Notes: a model not told the origin generated them from the sequence alone. 37,115 nucleotides of DNA from Pseudomonadales bacterium RIFCSPLOWO2_12_59_9 (GCA_001830395.1 MHZN01000049.1:1-37115); one strand, 5' to 3'; positions 25,260 through 34,906 are shown, numbered from the stretch's first letter. Translations and numbers: made by a program.

Positions 25260-26042
25260 GAACCCACACCCTCAACCCCTTCCACATCATCGACTCTTGC
25301 GAAAACCCCGCCTTGTGCGTCTTGATAATATTGGCCAATGGATGCCCTCCGGCAAGCAGTGACGGCATCAGGTGCTGTTGCTTAATGTGGTCCTGCGGCT
25401 TATCAAGGCCGGCATCAGCGAGCGCCTGAAAGGCCTCCAGCTCGCATGACAATATCCCGCAGCAATTGTGGGCGCCCCAAGGCTGTTGGCCAAGCCCTGC
25501 GGGTCGGTGTCCGGGAAGTAGATGACCTTTGGGATGAGCTTGGCTAATGCCGTCACCGGTGCCGGTGAGAATTGGGGTGAGCCCCGGAACACGAACGGCA
25601 CGCCGACAAGCTCAACGGGCACGCAGTAGTTATGCGCTTGCAGCATCACCTCAAGGTTCTCGACAGCAATGATGCAGGCCAAGCCCTCTAATAGGCTTGC
25701 AGGCATGGCCATAGCGCAGCCAGGCATGATCTGTTGCTGCCGATCGCCGATCGTAAGCACGCCACTGGGAGCTGCCACCAGAACCATGCTCTTGGCAACA
25801 GCCTCACCCGACAGCTTTTCGTTCCGTGTCTTGCTGGCCAGCTCGCTTCGCGATCCCACTACCTTGGCCCCTTCAATAAAAGGGTCCCAGCCTGAATGCT
25901 TTTTCAGTAGCCCTCGCAAGGCTTTGCGATCGTCAGCGTCGAGCAGCAGGATGCGGCCAAAAGCCCGGCCAACGCCGTGAGCGTGATGGATCTTCGACCA
26001 GGCATCACCTAGCACCACTTCTGTGGCACCTAAACGGATAGC
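25252..26042 (-). pseudogene. Toprim-domain protein (JetD/DUF7281-like), frameshifted and 5'-truncated
   Basis: The first frame (to 25368) contains RAFGRILLLDADDRKALRGLLKKH, then IIAVENLEVMLQ and VIYFPDTDPQGLA. These are Toprim features: an acidic Glu in VEN-E and the Asp-x-Asp motif DTDPQG. The frame drifts into nonsense after GAPTIAAG near 25460. A one-base shift restores LSCELEAFQALADAGLDK and LMPSLLAGGHPLANII to the stop at 25252. The 5' end begins directly at the broken end of the SMC gene without a start codon of its own. Toprim proteins of this sort act as the nuclease partner of SMC-like ATPases in Wadjet/Mks-type plasmid defence. This copy should be inactive unless frameshifting rescues it. 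Confidence 0.6.
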
Positions 26043-27433
26043 CTTACCCTAGAGTTTTCCTCGATCAATTTCGAGCGCAAAGCTTCTTCAGCAGACAGTT
26101 CTGCCGTGTGCGAAACCGTGGCCTGCTGGATTGCTTTAGCGGCCTGAGCGTTATGGTCGTCAAGGCACTTCTGCGCCTCTCGCGCTTTAATCTGTGATTC
26201 CGCTCTTCGCCTTTCACGACGCTCGGTGATCGAGTCCTTTACGCCCTCCTTCATACTGGCGAAGCGTGACTGAATATCCGTCCCCTGGATTGTCAGAGTC
26301 TGCAACTGTGTCTTTTTCGATGCCAGCTCCTCTTGCAAACCCGGAAGTGTCTTGATCTCAATAAGCGTCCCGGCAAGGCCAGCAGCATAACTATCGCGTT
26401 GCTTTTCTATCTGCTGGACACGTTCAAAAAGCTGCTGCGCCTCAGCCACAGCGGAGCCAAGCCGATTTTGAATTTCCATCTGTTTCTGGTTCGATTTCTC
26501 TTTAGCAGCAACTTCCTGCTCCCGAGCTTCCGTCATAGCATCAGAGACCTTTTTAAGCTCCGCAGAAAGTTCGGCAGTTTTTCTTGTGGCCACAGACTTT
26601 AATCGGCCTTGCTGCAATTCGTTACCCAGCAGAATGTTACGCATCTGCGAGAGTTGAAGTATCTTGGGCTTGGTTTCGCGCTCCATAACCAAAAAACTGG
26701 CTCGGCTATTGATGGCACCTGCAAAGGCGTGCGCATCAACGCCCGACAGGTCAATGTCGCTACGCATTACCTCTTGCTGGAGGATCTCGCCTACAGCGGC
26801 CTCCATTGAATTGAAGGTGCCTTTGGACTCAAGGAGCGAGAACATCAAATTGTCGATGCCCGCAAAGTGATGCTTTGGCGGGGCCAGGGAATAAGAGCGC
26901 CGATACAGCGTGATCATCTTTTTACGACTGACATCCTCTACGCCATCAAGGTCGCCTGAGCCTGTGTTGTATTGAATGATCTTCCGGTAATGCAGGGTCA
27001 ACAGCTCTGGCGTGCAGTCAATGCCCATGGCAGCCACGTGCCGTTGCACGTCTTTTGGTAGCACCAGCTCACCTGACTGCTGGTCTTTGTAAAGCAGCTC
27101 GGGCCTCCATCCGGAGGACAGCAGCTGATACGCATAACCCGAAGATGAGCGGTGCAGAATCGCGGTTCGCAACTCATTTTCGTGATTGAGGTATTCGTAG
27201 ACGATGTAGCTGGAAGCGTTCGGCAGATAGTGGTCGGCAAACCTCACGGTGTTCACCCCGCCTTTCACCATGCGACCAGCTGAAGCACCGAAGAAGAGCG
27301 GGATCAACTTCAAGAACGTGGACTTGCCAATGCCGTTCGTACCGGTCAGGCAGGTGTTTTCATCGACCTTCACCTCGACCAGAGCACCCTGGCATAGAGA
27401 GTCGATCAGTACGACGCGGAGCAGTTTGGCCAC
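26030..27433 (-). pseudogene. SMC/MukB-like ATPase, N-terminal half only
   Basis: A 467-residue frame from a GTG at 27433, with GAGGA 8 nt upstream; the frame is open to an ATG at 27493. The Walker A motif is GTNGIGKST at residues 31-39, and the ATP head continues with VRFADHYLPNASSYIVYEY. From about residue 260 the sequence becomes a long coiled coil (AELSAELKKVSDAMTEARE, LQEELASKKTQLQTL). It stops abruptly at 26030 inside the coil: the return coil, the signature motif and Walker B are missing, and 12 bp later the Toprim fragment begins. A deletion therefore fused the two genes. Intact relatives load on DNA and, with a Toprim partner, cleave invading plasmids. Function is inferred from the family; this copy lacks a complete ATPase. 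Confidence 0.6.
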
Positions 27434-27503
27434 AAAAAGAGTCCTCGATTGCGCAGAAGTGTGGATAATCGTTGTTGCCGACGCATTACCCATTGCATGG
27501 TCA

Positions 27504-27533
27504 AATCATATTGATCGCACTACACAATCATAT
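27504..27533. promoter_or_regulatory. Direct repeat in the divergent SMC/WYL promoter region
   Basis: AATCATAT occurs at 27504-27511 and again at 27526-27533, 22 bp apart (two helical turns), in the 129-bp gap between the SMC-like and WYL genes. It is a candidate operator for the WYL protein, as BrxR/CapW-type regulators bind near their own divergent promoters. No convincing -35/-10 pair could be fixed. Confidence 0.3.
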
Positions 27534-27562
27534 ACGCACATCGGCAACTGAGGATTTATCCA

Positions 27563-28450
27563 GTGTCTGAATCGATCACCTTGAGCGAGCTACCCCGCAA
27601 GCAGCGAGACCGACTGGCTTTCATTGAAATGCAGGCGTGGTTTTGCGGTGACGTGTCCCGTCAAAACGTGGTTTCTCGCTTTGCCGTAAAGACGGCGGCG
27701 GCAACCCGAGACCTCGCGCTGTATCGGTGCTTGGCACCGCAGAATCTGGCGTTCAATGACAATAGAAAGTGCTATCACCCAACGACTGGCTTCACGCCGC
27801 TGTTCGACTTCAACACAGAGCGTGTTTCGACCTGGCTAAGCCACGGCTTTGGCGATGAAGAGCCGCTGGCATGGAATACCGGGATTGAGTGCTCGATCAC
27901 CGAGCAGTTATCACGACCAAAGCTGAACCACTTGGCTGCAATCTGCCGAGCGATTAAGCAAGAGCAGCCCGCTGAGATTGAGTACCAATCACTGAACGGC
28001 AAGAGCACTCGGGTGATCGTTCCTTTTGCACTGCATAACAACGCACAGCGCTGGCATGTCCGGGCCTTTGATCGCAAGGCGAACGAGTTTCGTGACTTTG
28101 TGCTGACCCGTATTACCTCGGTGACACCGGCTGGCGATGCCGCCGCCCACGAGAAATCGGGCGAGGATGATCAATGGAACAGGAAGGTTGAACTCGAACT
28201 GGTTCCTCACCCAAATCTTGAGCGCCCAGAGCCGGTAATTTTGGATTACGACTTCGATGACACCTTGGTTAAAAAGGTCAAAGTGCGCGCGGCTGTAGCG
28301 GGTTATGCGCTACGCCAGTGGGGCGTGGATTGCTCCGAAAGCCACACGCTAAACCCGAGAGAGCACCAGCTATGGTTGCGCAACAGGGCTGTGCTTTACG
28401 GCGTACCCAACCTCAAGCTGGCGCACGGATATGAAGATGCAACCGAATAG
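27563..28450 (+). CDS. WYL-domain transcriptional regulator (BrxR/CapW-like)
   Basis: A 295-residue protein with GTG start at 27563, after AGGA. Residues of about 10-75 form a winged-helix-like DNA-binding region (RLAFIEMQAWFCGDVSRQNVVSRFAVKTAAATRDLALYR). Residues of about 125-195 are a WYL domain: EIEYQSLNGKSTRVIVPFAL, WHVRAFDRKANEFRDFVLTRI. The C-terminal part (VKVRAAVAGYALRQWGVDCSES) fits the WCX extension. This three-part layout is that of BrxR/CapW-type repressors that control BREX, CBASS and other defence loci in response to a ligand. It is divergent from the SMC-like gene across 129 bp, so it probably regulated that system. The gene is intact even though its presumed target is broken. 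Confidence 0.75.
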   Translation: MSESITLSELPRKQRDRLAFIEMQAWFCGDVSRQNVVSRFAVKTAAATRDLALYRCLAPQNLAFNDNRKCYHPTTGFTPLFDFNTERVSTWLSHGFGDEEPLAWNTGIECSITEQLSRPKLNHLAAICRAIKQEQPAEIEYQSLNGKSTRVIVPFALHNNAQRWHVRAFDRKANEFRDFVLTRITSVTPAGDAAAHEKSGEDDQWNRKVELELVPHPNLERPEPVILDYDFDDTLVKKVKVRAAVAGYALRQWGVDCSESHTLNPREHQLWLRNRAVLYGVPNLKLAHGYEDATE

Positions 28451-28970: not shown

Positions 28971-29558
28971 TCAGTTCGGGCGTGGTGTTTCTAGTACGCC
29001 AAGTAAGACACTTAGGAGAGACTGCCCTAACCCACGGTCAAGTAATCGAGCAGACATTCCAAACGCTTCTGGGCCTTCAAGGTCAGCCTTCTTGCTGTCA
29101 CCTACGAACAGAACATCCCGCGGGCGACATGACATACGCTTACACACATCAAAATAGATTTCAGGATCAGGTTTAGCTGCGCCCACCTCGCAGCTAAAAA
29201 TATACTCGTCGACTGTGGGCAAAATAGTTCGTACCGCGGCACAGTACTCAAACGCCAAATTACTGCAGACCGCAACTCTATATCCGGCACCTTTTAGCTG
29301 AGCCAGAGTTGGCGCGACATCTGGATAGAGAGTCAGCCCATCAATTTCTTGCTGGATTTCTCTGCGAAGGATCGGCACCAAATAGCCAACTCCGAGCTCC
29401 TCTGCGAAAACATCAATTGCGACATTACGCGTGAGGATTGGCATGCGAGTTGGTTTCTCACCACTCCCGAGGCCAATTAGTCGACTGTATGGATTTGCAC
29501 GCCTCCGAGCCTTTGGGATCAGGGTGCCGAAAGCATCAAAAACGACTACGGATACCAT
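28971..29558 (-). CDS. HAD-superfamily hydrolase (haloacid-dehalogenase-like, subfamily IA)
   Basis: A 195-residue HAD enzyme. Motif I is VVVFDAFGTLI with nucleophile Asp8. The second position is Phe rather than Asp, as in the haloacid dehalogenase branch (FDAYGT) and unlike most phosphatases. Motif II is CSNLAFEY (Ser99), motif III is GAAKPDPEIY (Lys129) and motif IV is VLFVGDSKKADLEG (Asp154). The helical cap lies at residues of about 15-80. The substrate is unknown. It lies in a minus-strand run with the BPSL0761-like and phosphatase genes but is separated from them by about 240 bp, so co-transcription is uncertain. HAD genes are frequent passengers in defence islands. Confidence 0.85.
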   Translation of the reverse strand: MVSVVVFDAFGTLIPKARRRANPYSRLIGLGSGEKPTRMPILTRNVAIDVFAEELGVGYLVPILRREIQQEIDGLTLYPDVAPTLAQLKGAGYRVAVCSNLAFEYCAAVRTILPTVDEYIFSCEVGAAKPDPEIYFDVCKRMSCRPRDVLFVGDSKKADLEGPEAFGMSARLLDRGLGQSLLSVLLGVLETPRPN

Positions 29559-29801: not shown

Positions 29802-30083
29802 TCAGGTTCTGATTTCACTATCTTCCGCAATCAGTTTCTGAATACGACCAGTTTCATCCAGCCTGGCGGTAATGAGCAGGTTATATGGAATGGTTCCGCC
29901 TATCCTGCGGATGTATTCCTCTTTTTCAGCGAGCATGTTCACCTCGCTTGCAGAGGGATAATGACGCAGAGCGCGCGTGGCCTGGCGTTTTATCTCATCG
30001 CTGACCTCGCTGCTGGTAGTCAGGCTGTTGAGGAATTGGCGCACTTCCATGAGTGCGGCAGTGCGTTCGATCGGCATAGTCAC
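29802..30083 (-). CDS. BPSL0761-like protein
   Basis: A 93-residue protein. The GTG at 30083 gives MTMPIERTAALMEVRQF, preceded by GGAGG five bases upstream; an ATG at 30095 is open but poorer. MTMP-ERT-A and the later RALRHYPSASEVNML match the small family named after Burkholderia BPSL0761 (pattern RxLLRHYPSAxEI), which is found on genomic islands. Function is unknown; the fold is probably helical. It lies between the HAD and inositol-phosphatase-like genes on the same strand. Confidence 0.7.
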   Translation of the reverse strand: MTMPIERTAALMEVRQFLNSLTTSSEVSDEIKRQATRALRHYPSASEVNMLAEKEEYIRRIGGTIPYNLLITARLDETGRIQKLIAEDSEIRT

Positions 30084-30202
30084 GGCTGCCTCCATTAAAT
30101 CGCTCCGGGTTTCGTAGACATCTCCAGGCCTAAGCCGGAGCGTAGTCGTTTATGGTTCCGCCTCTAGGACATTGTTCAGACGCATTTAGCTCCGCGGCGT
30201 GA

Positions 30203-31066
30203 TCAAGCCCCGTCATTACTGAGTAGAAGCTGCCAATCTCGTGAGACAAGTGTTTCGCATGCCTGAGGAGCACCACCAAAGCAGCGCTCTGAAACTGCGT
30301 CCATCACAGCTGCAGTGCGATAACTGATTGCCACGCCATCCTGGTTTACCAAGGTGCCGCCTGAAGCGCGTAACAAGGCGTGCCCGGCAACAACGTCATG
30401 CGCAGAAACCGGGTACAAGGACACTGCACATATGCCGTCGCCGGCGGCGACTCGGGCTAAACGATAAGCGATGCTGGGCATTGCAACGAAACGCCCAGGG
30501 GCACAAAGCTCTGCATTAAGCAGAGACTTTTTCACAGCAGCGGCGCTAACCATTACGTGATCGGAATCAGTCAGTTTTCGGTCCGTCAGATCCAAGTTTA
30601 CTGGCAGGCCGTTACGCAGTAATTCAGGCAATCCTTCAGCCCACGCAATGCAGTCAGCTCCGCGCGCCTCGGTAACAGGTGCATAAACAACACCGAGTAC
30701 AGGAATGCTGTTGCGCAGCAAGCCTACAGACACGGCAGACCCTTTCAAGCCTCTAAGAAAGTCGGAGGTTCCATCATTTGGATCGACAACCCAGCAGTAG
30801 GCGTGGCCCGATAGTATGTGGCCGGTTTCTTCGCCCCAAAAATCACACGGCAATAGCGTCAAAAGTCGCTGACGCAAAATAAGCTCGATCTCAACATCAA
30901 CGTCCGCTTTGTCGCCTTGACCACGAGGGCCACCTGCACGCGCCCACTCCGCTTCGATCAGCTTTCCAGCAGACTCGACTACATCCATAACCTGGATCAA
31001 CAGTTGCGGAAGGATAACGTCACCCATCTGAGTCGACCGGCTGTCCCTACTTGTCTGCTTACTCAC
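30203..31066 (-). CDS. Inositol-monophosphatase/CysQ-family phosphatase
   Basis: A 287-residue metal-dependent phosphatase. Metal-binding motifs are WGEETG (Glu79-Glu80), WVVDPNDGTSDFLRG (Asp95, Asp98, Gly-Thr) and the C-terminal SAHDVVAGHALLRASGG, with Asp224 replacing the usual WD-AG as HD-AG. This superfamily includes inositol monophosphatase, fructose bisphosphatase and the 3'(2'),5'-bisphosphate nucleotidase CysQ/pAp phosphatase. The sequence alone does not decide among them. The GTG start at 31066 overlaps the stop of the AbrB-like gene by 8 bp, so the two are translationally coupled. An AbrB-coupled IMPase in a helicase operon is not a sulfur-metabolism context. Confidence 0.8.
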   Translation of the reverse strand: MSKQTSRDSRSTQMGDVILPQLLIQVMDVVESAGKLIEAEWARAGGPRGQGDKADVDVEIELILRQRLLTLLPCDFWGEETGHILSGHAYCWVVDPNDGTSDFLRGLKGSAVSVGLLRNSIPVLGVVYAPVTEARGADCIAWAEGLPELLRNGLPVNLDLTDRKLTDSDHVMVSAAAVKKSLLNAELCAPGRFVAMPSIAYRLARVAAGDGICAVSLYPVSAHDVVAGHALLRASGGTLVNQDGVAISYRTAAVMDAVSERCFGGAPQACETLVSRDWQLLLSNDGA

Positions 31067-31271
31067 GGTCCCATTGCTCGACTAACTCATCAATGCGATT
31101 GGGAATGCGCGGGATTTTTGAAATGACAAGGACCCGAGTAGTACCTATGAACTCCTCAACCAGGTAAACCGTGTCACCGACATCCCCCCCCATTTCCTGC
31201 AAAACCTCATCCGGTATTCGGATGCCGCCATCACCATCCCAGTCCTCAATCGTAATCGGCTGGTTGTACAT
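31059..31271 (-). CDS. AbrB/MazE-like DNA-binding protein
   Basis: A 70-residue protein. The ATG at 31271 (MYNQPITIEDW) is chosen because AGGA lies upstream; the longer frame to 31406 is not family-like. The segment GIRIPDEVLQEMGGDVGDTVYLVEE is the swapped-hairpin AbrB/SpoVT fold typical of MazE-type antitoxins and transition-state regulators. The C-terminus (IPRIPNRIDELVEQWDRE) is antitoxin-like, but no mazF or other RNase toxin follows; instead its end overlaps the phosphatase gene by 8 bp. It may autoregulate this pair. Confidence 0.75.
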   Translation of the reverse strand: MYNQPITIEDWDGDGGIRIPDEVLQEMGGDVGDTVYLVEEFIGTTRVLVISKIPRIPNRIDELVEQWDRE

Positions 31272-31335
31272 GCTGTCCTCACTCCACCTGAAAAATGATG
31301 TGCGCTCACGCTTATAAGCGCTGTCGATACCACAT

Positions 31336-32736
31336 TTAAAAGCAGGCCAACAACTGTTGCCGATAGTGCTTGGAAAAGCTGACCTGATAGCTTGACTCAG
31401 CCACAAAGTCCGCTTGAGAGTAAGTGCTCATAGCGCCTAAGCCGACAGCCTGTTCGGCTCCTCCTGCAATACTGCCGCCGTGGCCATCGATATTACCGGC
31501 AGATCCAATCCAGCCGATATCTGAACCTGAAGAGACGACAGGCATCTGCACCGCGCTCCATACCGCCAGGTCATCCGGCAGATCATCCGCAATTCTCTCC
31601 GCTAAGCGCTGTAGCGTTGGCTCCGCCAGCATGAAAAGCCATGCGCGGTCATCGGTCTGACCAGTACGCCGAAGCACTCGGCCCAGCACTTGCCGGTAAT
31701 GCAGTTCGGTACGGATGCGGCTGAGGTAGCAGCACACCTGTAAGCGGGGGATGTCGGTGCCTTCACTGATCATCCCCACGGCAACAATCCACCGGCAGGC
31801 GCTGTGCCTGAACACATTAATCACTTGCTGCGCATCCGGAGTTTTGTTGGTCACGATGCAGCAACCTTCACCCCTGGTGACGAGAGCCTGGGCTATTTGC
31901 TGAGCGTGCTCAATGTCGGTGGCAACTACCAAACCGGCTGCATCAGACTTGATAAGACGAAGCTCATTGAGCTTGTTACAGCCAAGATCGAGCAGTTGAT
32001 CAATCACCTCGTCATGGCGTAGCAGTTCTTCATAGGTGACAGGGGATTCCCCCAAGAGCTTGGCAATGCTGGAAAACAGCTTCACAGAGCTATCACCACC
32101 CAGTTCTTCCGTGACTTTCACCTTCTCATTGTCGAGCAGGACAATGCGCGGGGATCGACACACGCCGTCAGCTACGGCGTCTTTCAGGCTATAGCGGTAG
32201 TCACAGATCAGGTGCCCCTCGGGTGTCGAATAGCGTGCCAAGGCAATGGCCCGGTCATCCGAGCGCCATGGTGTGCCGGAGAGAGCCAGCGTGAAGGCAG
32301 CCTGATCCTGTATCCGGAGCAGTATCTGCTGCCCCCAAGCGTTGCTAAGAAGCGGATCATGACCTGCGCAATGGTGGATTTCATCGAAGACCACGAGCAC
32401 ACGGTAGTCATCAAGAAGCTGCCAAAACCCCTCATCTCGGTACTCCATAGCCTGGTAGGTAGACGCTTCCCCCACTGCGCCAATCTGGCCATCAAAACGC
32501 CGGCCAAGTACCGTGACAAAGGTTGAACGAAGGCCATCAACAACTTGGCAGGATGGTGCGAAACACAACACTAGATCGATCCTGTCCTGCTCAAGCAGTC
32601 TGCTAGCCAATTCTGCCGCCATGCGCGTCTTGCCGGCACCCGGTGTTGCCTGGCAGAAGAAATGCGGCGTAACGGCAAAGTGCGCCAACGCCGTATTGAT
32701 GCAGTTGTTTTGCCAGTCTCGTAGCGATCTGGTCAT
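31336..32736 (-). CDS. Superfamily 2 DEAD/DEAH-type helicase
   Basis: A 466-residue helicase. Motif I is ATPGAGKT (residues 30-37), motif II is DEIH (118-121), motif III region is SGTPWR (153-158), and motif VI is QVLGRVLRR (349-357), with GMISEGTDIPRL as motif V. The N-terminus LRDWQNNCINTALAHF is the Q-tip-like region of ResIII/UvrB-type helicases. The C-terminal 90 residues (GSDIGWIGSAGNIDGHGGSIAGG) are Gly-rich and not helicase-like. The gene begins as ATGA overlap with the upstream 196-aa gene (32733-32736), so they are coupled. It is compact compared with Hachiman or BREX helicases and lacks a nuclease domain. A defence or DNA-processing role is inferred from the context only. Confidence 0.88.
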   Translation of the reverse strand: MTRSLRDWQNNCINTALAHFAVTPHFFCQATPGAGKTRMAAELASRLLEQDRIDLVLCFAPSCQVVDGLRSTFVTVLGRRFDGQIGAVGEASTYQAMEYRDEGFWQLLDDYRVLVVFDEIHHCAGHDPLLSNAWGQQILLRIQDQAAFTLALSGTPWRSDDRAIALARYSTPEGHLICDYRYSLKDAVADGVCRSPRIVLLDNEKVKVTEELGGDSSVKLFSSIAKLLGESPVTYEELLRHDEVIDQLLDLGCNKLNELRLIKSDAAGLVVATDIEHAQQIAQALVTRGEGCCIVTNKTPDAQQVINVFRHSACRWIVAVGMISEGTDIPRLQVCCYLSRIRTELHYRQVLGRVLRRTGQTDDRAWLFMLAEPTLQRLAERIADDLPDDLAVWSAVQMPVVSSGSDIGWIGSAGNIDGHGGSIAGGAEQAVGLGAMSTYSQADFVAESSYQVSFSKHYRQQLLACF

Positions 32737-33323
32737 CGTGCGGCGGCAAGCGTCTTACGTGTATTCTCTATGGCGCGAAGATGACCCATCAGGATAGAGC
32801 TTTGATTTCTAGCCTTTAGATACTCGCCCTCAACCTTATCGCGCAGATGCGGCATATCATCCAGTAGCTGTTTGTAGCGCGCCGCCTCGCCCATCAAAGA
32901 CAGGAAATCCAGCTGAATCTCATTTTCGAGCGTTTCCAAGTAGTGATCCGTATCCGGTAAAGGACTAAGCGGTAAAGCCGAATTATCGGACACTGATAAC
33001 TCCTGCTCTGCCTCAAAAACAGGCTTAAGGCTGTTCTCGAAGCCGTTGTCGATCAGCTCCAACTGCAAATGCGCCGGAATGGGTTGCAGGTGATAGACCT
33101 GCCCACGCACACGGCGTTCCTTATCGTGTACTAGCCAGTCCATGCGCAGCATTCGGCGGATCTGCTCATACACATAGCGACGTACATCGGCGATACGGAA
33201 ATTCATGCCATTTAGCTGTTTGGCATAGGCGTCGCGTAGTTCACGGGTCGTGAACTTTGTACGCCCTTCCTCCTGAAGCAACCCATACAGGCGCCTGTCA
33301 AAGATGAACGAGGCCGATTTCAT
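32733..33323 (-). CDS. Helicase-partner protein, unknown (196 aa)
   Basis: First gene of the minus-strand operon. The N-terminal half resembles a winged-helix fold by inspection: FTTRELRDAYAKQL, MNFRIADVRRYVYEQIRRML, RMDWLVHDKERRVRGQVYHL. A central acidic linker (SVSDNSALPLSPLPDTDHYL) leads to a C-terminal helical region (YLKARNQSSILMGHLRAIEN) likely to be a coiled coil. I do not recognise the family. ATGA overlap with the helicase argues that the two proteins form a functional pair. A consensus promoter lies directly upstream, overlapped by the C-box-like operators. Confidence 0.7.
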   Translation of the reverse strand: MKSASFIFDRRLYGLLQEEGRTKFTTRELRDAYAKQLNGMNFRIADVRRYVYEQIRRMLRMDWLVHDKERRVRGQVYHLQPIPAHLQLELIDNGFENSLKPVFEAEQELSVSDNSALPLSPLPDTDHYLETLENEIQLDFLSLMGEAARYKQLLDDMPHLRDKVEGEYLKARNQSSILMGHLRAIENTRKTLAAAR

Positions 33324-33354
33324 TAAGGCACCAGAAGAGTAATAGCGTAAAAAT

Positions 33355-33383
33355 ACGGATTATAGTCCGTGGATCGTGCGTCC
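33355..33383. promoter_or_regulatory. C-box-like operators between the helicase operon and the controller gene
   Basis: GGATTATAGTCC (33357-33368) and GGATCGTGCGTCC (33371-33383) are two inverted-repeat half-operators separated by GT. The core TATAGTCCGTG is the hallmark of C-boxes bound by restriction-modification controller proteins such as C.Esp1396I (GACTTATAGTCCGTG). They overlap the divergent promoter, so a controller dimer here could both repress and activate. Confidence 0.7.
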
Positions 33384-33387
33384 GCAA
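33359..33387 (-). promoter_or_regulatory. Sigma-70 promoter of the 196-aa/helicase operon
   Basis: Minus strand: -35 TTGCGG (33387-33382), 17-bp spacer, -10 TATAAT (33364-33359), a perfect consensus -10. It starts transcription about 30 bp before the ATG at 33323. The -10 and spacer are covered by the C-box-like operators, so the controller protein should act directly on this promoter. Confidence 0.7.
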
Positions 33388-33426
33388 ACGCTGGATAGTG
33401 CCGCCTCAAGTAGAATTGAGACGGTC

Positions 33427-33657
33427 ATGGATAAGTTGGCGCAGGCGTTAGGGGAACGCATCCGGGCACAGAGGAAGACCTGCGGGATGTCTCAGGATGC
33501 GCTAGCACTGGCCTGCAGTATCGACCGCAGCTATGTGGGGCGAATCGAGCGGGGTGAAGTAAATATTACTGTCGAGAAGCTATATCGCCTCGCTGCTGAA
33601 CTCGCCTGCGAGCCGTCCTGCCTTCTGCCTACAACATCTGATTTGCAGCCCAGCTGA
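33427..33657 (+). CDS. Controller-type (C-protein-like) XRE regulator
   Basis: A 76-residue single-domain helix-turn-helix protein. The ATG at 33427 (MDKLAQALGERIRAQRK) is chosen because the family starts there. The HTH covers residues of about 19-47: MSQDALALACSIDRSYVGRIERGEVNITVEKL. IDRSYVGRIERG...NIT aligns by eye with controller proteins of restriction-modification systems (DRTYISGIERNSRNLT in C.Esp1396I). Divergent from the helicase operon with C-box-like operators in between. Controller proteins time expression by positive and negative autoregulation. No restriction enzyme or methylase is present here, so it would be timing a helicase/phosphatase operon. Confidence 0.8.
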   Translation: MDKLAQALGERIRAQRKTCGMSQDALALACSIDRSYVGRIERGEVNITVEKLYRLAAELACEPSCLLPTTSDLQPS

Positions 33658-33751: not shown

Positions 33752-34140
33752 TCAGTCCTTACTGACTTTTCTCGCACGCGGTTTGCGCTTAGGCGGCGAC
33801 GGTTCCCGAAGTTGAGTGATCTGGTGCTCCAGCGTGTCACCCCTTGCCAGCTCCGCTGCTGCTCGCCGCTCTGCCTGACTGAGTTCGACCTGCGTCGACT
33901 CCAACCGACGATGCAGCTGTTCCAGTTGGCGGTTCACCCACTCATGCGCGCCACTCTGATGTTCTTTCCTTTAACGAAAAGCTCCAGCGCCATACGCATT
34001 TCGTCAATCGCACGCGCTGCATGGTGATGAAACATAACGATTTCATCGTCGCCCTCTCGAAGGATTGCTTTATCTTGGTGGAATCACACAAGCATTGCTA
34101 ATGCGACCCCCATCTGCTCAATAGTCACTTGCGTTTCCAT
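33752..34140 (-). pseudogene. Decayed coiled-coil protein gene (nonsense plus frameshift)
   Basis: From an ATG at 34140 the minus strand reads METQVTIEQMGVALAMLV, an in-frame TGA, and then continues in the same frame with FHQDKAILREGDDEIVM and AARAIDEMRMALELFVKGKN. A one-base shift near 33958 leads to EWVNRQLEQLHRRLESTQ, VELSQAERRAAAELARG and the basic tail PPKRKPRARKVSKD, stopping at 33752. The reconstructed product is about 128 residues with a coiled coil and a Lys/Arg-rich end, which could bind nucleic acid. I do not recognise the family. Two independent lesions show it is no longer functional. Confidence 0.55.
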
Positions 34141-34398: not shown

Positions 34399-34710
34399 TC
34401 ACCGCACCTGCCAAAGCTCATCCAACCGAGTAGTAAAACTTGGACTCTTGAGTTCCTGCCGCATACCCCAGTCTGGCGTTGCCGGAACCCCACCTGGGCG
34501 CAGCGTTCCCCTTCCCCATTTCGCATTAATCTTGTCCATCACTCCCATGACCCGCTCGCTCGTCGCGGGCTGCACTAGGGCGAACAGATCGTCGGTGAAG
34601 ATCCACCAGCAGCACTTCGGCCTTGCTGAATTTGAATCCCTCCCTGAACACTTCGTCCAGGCCGGCCATGGCCGCCTTCGTGATGATTCGGGTGTCGTCG
34701 GTTGGATATG
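34399..34710 (-). pseudogene. umuC: UmuC-like DNA polymerase V subunit, C-terminal relic (frameshifted)
   Basis: Two frames together spell the end of UmuC. First, DDTRIITKAAMAGLDEVF and FKFSKAEVLLVDLHR (about 34710-34595). Then, after a shift, FTDDLFALVQPATSERVMG, VMDKINAKWGRGTLRPGG and DWGMRQELKSPSFTTRLDE to the stop at 34399. The WGRGTLRP and TTRLDELW blocks belong to the DUF4113 tail of UmuC/RulB. The polymerase core is absent. umuC/rulB genes are known insertion points for mobile elements in pseudomonads, so this relic may mark one island end. Confidence 0.8.
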
Positions 34711-34906
34711 GTATCTATCCGCGTAGAACACAGCACGAGCATAATCAAGCGTCTATAGAAGTGGTAGATGGCGCGATAGTCCCTGCGCCAAAGCGCAGTA
34801 CATCCCCCTCTCCCTGAACTCTGCCTTACCGAATTTCACAACTTAAATTCCCGGCGGGCTTACTCGGACGCCAGCTTCTCGAAAGCGGAGATGGGCAGAA
34901 GCTGCG

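Follow-up and report, generated by a model that had tools for sequence, protein, structure and literature searches.

C proteins are known as timers of restriction enzymes, and they can activate as well as repress. The published C-box of one of them, C.Csp231I, is a pair of CTAAG-N5-CTTAG repeats with a spacing of about 18 bp (PMC3115060, PMC4824078). The Xre proteins of I-F3 CRISPR transposons (CASTs) are reported to act through zygotic induction, with a transposition burst upon entry into a new cell (PMC11406308), and regulators of Shewanella CASTs cluster with C.Csp231I (PMC12452197). The CBASS of VSP-1 is under negative control by VspR (PMC10653837). We report here a locus in which a C-protein-type switch is coupled to genes for a DNA-binding protein and a helicase, both in defense islands of Gammaproteobacteria and in CRISPR transposons. 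Our reading is that a controller-switched pair of winged-helix protein and helicase has been conserved as a module of mobile defense islands and of some CRISPR transposons. Its biochemical role is putative; our literature search found no paper describing this combination of an XRE gene, a gene for a 196-aa protein and a helicase gene.

The window that we analyzed is a stretch of 37,115 nt from Pseudomonadales bacterium RIFCSPLOWO2_12_59_9 (GCA_001830395.1, MHZN01000049.1:1-37115), within which the locus under study spans 30,203-33,657. A plus-strand gene (33427..33657) encodes a 76-aa XRE controller, a probable C-protein-like repressor, which we class as R-M-controller-like from its match to PADLOC Control_protein (3e-13) and from its nearest solved chain, C.AhdI (2e-10). 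Its start is most likely ATG 33427 rather than GTG 33376, since homologs (61-85% identical) begin there and the spacing to the start of the 196-aa gene is then fixed at ~100 bp. Divergent from it, on the minus strand, are the 196-aa protein gene (32733..33323); an SF2 helicase gene (31336..32736; 466 aa) whose ORF overlaps the preceding one by 4 bp (ATGA); a gene for an AbrB/MazE-like small protein (31059..31271; MazE 0.003, below cut-off); and an IMPase/CysQ-like phosphatase gene (30203..31066; Inositol_P 1e-26) whose ORF overlaps the AbrB stop. A sequence-only reading of this DNA had already recognized these ORFs and the divergent controller-type XRE gene; its gene placements stand, while the starts of the XRE and AbrB genes have been revised, the latter most likely to ATG 31271. 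Farther along the minus strand are genes for a BPSL0761-family small protein (29802..30095; NF041728 2e-18), frequent cargo after the helicase, and for a HAD-family phosphatase (28971..29558), cargo that profile match and neighborhood comparison show to be common to the window and locus L077. A WYL-domain gene, a truncated DUF3584 (MukB/JetC-like) ATPase gene and a DUF7281 protein gene, side by side at 25368-28450, look like a broken SMC/Wadjet-like defense locus. Beyond the XRE gene, a KfrA-like remnant (33752-33937; 46% to L028:8318-9190) and a remnant of the UmuC C-terminus (34402-34714), in shifted frames, indicate a decayed island edge.

The 196-aa protein occurs in 19 of 200 same-genus genomes and on 18 plasmid records, and a scan of GTDB contigs returned 80 loci, which together with six plasmid loci form the 86 related loci over which the unit was counted. 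A divergent XRE gene lies 80-125 bp from the 196-aa gene in 81 of the 82 loci with upstream sequence (a count that includes L025 after anchor correction); it is thus present wherever its position is readable, the sole exception being a contig-end fragment (L071). The helicase gene directly follows the 196-aa gene in all 83 Pseudomonas-group loci, the two ORFs overlapping or abutting. The conserved unit is therefore XRE, 196-aa winged-helix protein and SF2 helicase. Under the refuting condition that the sequence-only reading had set, a gene set not conserved as a unit, this three-gene part holds and the four-gene operon is rejected: of the 86 related loci, only one (L077) has AbrB and roughly 12 have IMPase close to the module, both being variable, optional cargo outside the unit, the latter recurrent. 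The BPSL0761-family protein is found in 32 of 87 loci. Concerning type II toxin–antitoxin (TA) membership, no toxin domain was found in the window proteins, and the sub-cut-off MazE-like match of AbrB belongs to a gene that is not conserved.

Median dN/dS values of 0.11 for XRE, 0.17 for the 196-aa protein and about 0.11 for the helicase indicate purifying selection on all three genes. This selection persists in a Pseudomonas peli/Pseudomonas marincola clade in which the module stands by itself at a single chromosomal site; the flanks there are conserved, and no recombinase was seen nearby. Many copies are chromosomal, and plasmid copies are frequent. Phage origin was rejected, given that no relatives were found in viral contigs and that the best phage helicase match (Saccharomonospora phage, 34%) occurs as an isolated gene. 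At one locus (L153:1239-1515) the XRE gene and operator survive without the 196-aa and helicase genes, with a Sir2-like gene just downstream; at another (L022:2398-4063), a second XRE gene on the same plasmid has as divergent partners a hypothetical gene and one for IMPase, which gives IMPase an XRE-type divergent promoter to itself.

A near-consensus promoter, TTGCGG-17-TATAAT, drives the 196-aa/helicase pair. Its −35 box (33382..33387, minus strand) lies 17 bp from TATAAT within GTTTGCGGA-N-gCCACGGAYTATAATCCGcATTT, and its −10 box (33359-33364) is contained in the palindrome CGGAYTATAATCCG, represented in the window by CGGACTATAATCCG (33356..33369, minus strand). The consensus TGAGgCgGcAcTATC-tGcGTTTGCGGAcg-N-gCCACGGAYTATAATCCGcATTT is common to 68 distinct upstream sequences, and the operator is kept 28-42 bp 5' of the start codon in nearly all Pseudomonas and Halomonas relatives. 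It is effectively unique in the genome: across 200 Pseudomonas genomes it has 22 sites, all beside the module XRE (including one operon-less remnant that keeps XRE and one contig end), as compared to 3 sites for the reversed control pattern. The same operator search retrieved no XRE regulon outside the module in these genomes; within the loci themselves, further sites were weak, with 2 mismatches. The earlier proposal of a consensus promoter overlapped by C-box-like operators, ahead of an operon that is not R-M, is upheld by the 68 upstream sequences and the 22 specific sites. Just 5' of the XRE start, an imperfect dyad, CCGCCTCAA-N6-TTGAGACGG (33401..33424, no strand), has a mean score of 5.1 over the 68 sequences versus 2.5 in shuffles, and is a candidate second operator or leader hairpin.

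In distant versions of the module, carried by plasmids of Enterobacterales and Vibrio, the XREs are C.Csp231I-like. The operators are palindromes of the form CTTAG-N5-CTAAG (or CTAAG-N5-CTTAG), paired at a distance of 34 bp, and direct reading places a −35 box, TTGTCT, inside the first palindrome and a −10 box, TATACT, touching the second. We class these CTTAG-N5 operators as a match to the published C-box site, and the CGGAYTATAATCCG operators, by comparison, as C-box-like only. Because the operators cover the core promoter (the −10 box and, for the distant versions, the −35 box as well), bound controller should block it; accumulated controller should then repress the operon, so that expression would be highest on first entry and later shut down. 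This geometry predicts an early burst followed by repression, the opposite of the delay circuit put forward in the sequence-only reading, which is not borne out.

Two Vibrio I-F3 CASTs, L111 and L178, carry the module between tnsC and tniQ. Directly 5' of tniQ in each of them is a third C-box, of C.Csp231I type (L111:11280-11294 and L178:13239-13253), so that the C-box is shared with tniQ. An XRE operator in this position was found in these two loci only, and the window holds no I-F3 CAST. The helicase frame of L111 has an internal TAG. Two Vibrio plasmids carry an XRE/196-like pair without an adjacent helicase (L184:7340-8281 and L185:8657-9531); both pairs are close to defense and recombinase genes, that of L184 being near adenosine deaminase, SIR2 and ATPase-S8 peptidase genes. 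An E. coli chromosomal copy (L107:9425-12978) is split by IS2 and lies close to gorA, rlmJ and rsmJ, the last a reported I-F3 CAST insertion site.

The helicase has an intact Walker A (ATPGAGKT), FDEIHH and motif VI (QVLGRVLRR), motifs that are invariant in 28 homologs. Profiles for RadD (6e-13) and PbeA (4e-13) match its ResIII/RadD-like core; against the RadD equivalog it scores 47.9 bits where the cut-off is 720, which places it outside that family. Its structure prediction was of low confidence (pLDDT 55) and was left out of the analysis. Eight large Pseudomonas plasmids (hits H69-H76) share a 77% identical helicase cut down to residues 166-466, which appears to be one fixed broken module copy.

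For the 196-aa protein, the AlphaFold2 model (mean pLDDT 82) has an N-terminal winged helix, a disordered linker and a C-terminal helical hairpin. The best solved structural match to this model is PadR (E 4e-4, with a low TM-score of about 0.25); a fold search against viral models gave no match below 1e-3, and profile searches of the family against solved structures gave no significant match. Searches of Pfam, NCBIfam, PADLOC and PHROG assign the protein to no family, sub-threshold noise apart. PADLOC 2.0 gives the helicase weak generic matches only (PbeA being the best), and Pbe, Dnd or Ssp partners were not found. The earlier view that the composition fits no known defense system is supported to this extent, that the pair is a conserved unit of no recognized type. 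One Vibrio homolog of the 196-aa protein carries the depositor annotation VspR, and the class-wide search in the VspR comparison gave two weak matches outside its own genome. Identity with GmtX and with the small fourth gene of a recombinase cluster was rejected in each case for lack of similarity. On the simplest reading of the model, the 196-aa protein would bind DNA and act as the helicase's partner, guiding or loading it.

The enrichment near known defense genes that the sequence-only reading anticipated is found: at 1e-15, module neighborhoods matched 166 PADLOC families, as compared to 13 for integrase neighborhoods and 3 for random regions (21 non-overlapping loci, about 110 proteins per set), a contrast that is qualitative because the figures count families and one protein may match many related models. 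HsdR lies directly before XRE in 12 loci, where type I R-M genes abut the module; the earlier statement that there is no R-M locally is accordingly right for the window, but not for these relatives. Elsewhere the neighbors include Gabija, CBASS and DUF499/DUF1156 anti-phage genes, and in many loci recombinase genes or clusters adjoin or neighbor the module.

We tentatively favor, at a little under even probability, an entry-timed establishment module of mobile defense islands. In a resident cell, XRE bound to the core-promoter palindromes would keep the operon low. When an island enters an XRE-free cell, the near-consensus promoter would fire at once and give a burst of 196-aa protein and helicase, which XRE accumulation would then end, a form of zygotic induction like that reported for the I-F3 CAST Xre proteins. 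During that interval, the two products probably work on DNA jointly: the winged-helix protein would provide the target, which the helicase would remodel, and this may help the incoming island to integrate, survive or displace competitors; if so, it would help to explain how mobile defense islands survive arrival in hostile cells. This reading is favored by the invariant unit under purifying selection in more than 80 loci; by an operator that contains the −10 box and is module-only in 200 genomes; by the distant paired C-boxes that overlap −35 and −10, with their C.Csp231I-like XREs; by CAST-internal modules with a C-box before tniQ, alongside I-F3 Xre zygotic induction (PMC11406308); and by recombinase neighbors with defense cargo (type I R-M, Gabija, CBASS and others). 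Against it, solo copies under purifying selection in the P. peli/P. marincola clade suggest that the module is valuable after establishment, C proteins may activate too, and the two Vibrio plasmid pairs lack the helicase. A broader form of the proposal, which we consider unlikely, is that of a portable entry module for mobile DNA, common to tyrosine-recombinase islands, plasmid defense islands and CRISPR-guided transposons, that would fire only on arrival and open or strip DNA for establishment; the I-F3 CAST Xre switches may derive from such modules.

Defense proper, as the sequence-only reading had it, is plausible, although the regulation agrees no less well with establishment of a mobile element. 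The 196-aa/helicase pair would be an uncatalogued anti-phage or anti-plasmid system, possible but rather doubtful in our estimate, with XRE limiting basal expression, perhaps relieved on infection; in such a system, the winged-helix protein would recognize foreign DNA or an intermediate, which the helicase would unwind or strip. If this were true, the system would be one absent from PADLOC 2.0. The excess of PADLOC families among the 110 neighbors speaks for it, but such enrichment may be hitch-hiking on mobile islands. The persistence of solo chromosomal copies under purifying selection, the lack of relatives in viral contigs and the status of RadD/ResIII-like helicases as a common defense part also fit, whereas no nuclease, toxin or other effector domain was seen, the operator geometry would give peak expression on entry and not in residents, and modules inside CASTs with tniQ co-control point to mobility. 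By sequence alone, establishment and stand-alone defense are close rivals.

On a further reading, which we judge improbable, the 196-aa protein would be chiefly regulatory: a second transcription factor for the genes of the island, in the manner of VspR, with the helicase as an accessory. The PadR-like winged-helix and coiled-coil fold, the VspR annotation of one Vibrio homolog, the helicase-less pairs that adjoin defense genes and the negative regulation of CBASS by VspR (PMC10653837) are consistent with such a role, but the helicase follows the 196-aa gene without exception in the Pseudomonas group. Very improbable is an addiction (TA or plasmid-maintenance) module with a toxic helicase operon and a continuous need for XRE, for although XRE accompanies all but one of the readable copies, can outlast operon loss, and belongs to a module frequent on plasmids, the proteins fall outside known TA families with no small toxin, many copies are chromosomal, and regulators generally stay with their operons.

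Compared to known systems, the module shares a helicase core with RadD/ResIII-type SF2 helicases and PADLOC PbeA, but its helicase falls far below the family cut-offs (48 of 720 bits for RadD) and has no Pbe, Dnd or Ssp partners. In V. cholerae VSP-1, the XRE protein VC0176 and VspR (VC0177) by CBASS likewise set an XRE and a DNA-binding regulator beside defense genes, a likeness to VspR that one depositor annotation also draws, whereas a helicase gene is not described for VSP-1 in the literature found. The I-F3 CAST Xre regulators (RtaC/RtbC) are closer in having a C.Csp231I-class XRE and a C-box before tniQ, with the module itself in the CAST core of L111 and L178; they differ in that most module loci are without a transposon, the operon encodes the 196-aa protein and helicase, and the Pseudomonas module XRE is C.AhdI-like with another operator. 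With the type II R-M C proteins (C.AhdI and C.Csp231I), the module shares XRE fold and sequence and palindromic operators at a divergent promoter, including, in the distant class, the CTAAG/CTTAG-N5 C-box pair of C.Csp231I. It differs from them in what is controlled, as profile searches of the loci found that the operon encodes a winged-helix protein and helicase in place of a cognate endonuclease and methyltransferase, and in the position of the operators, which cover the core promoter and predict early rather than delayed expression.
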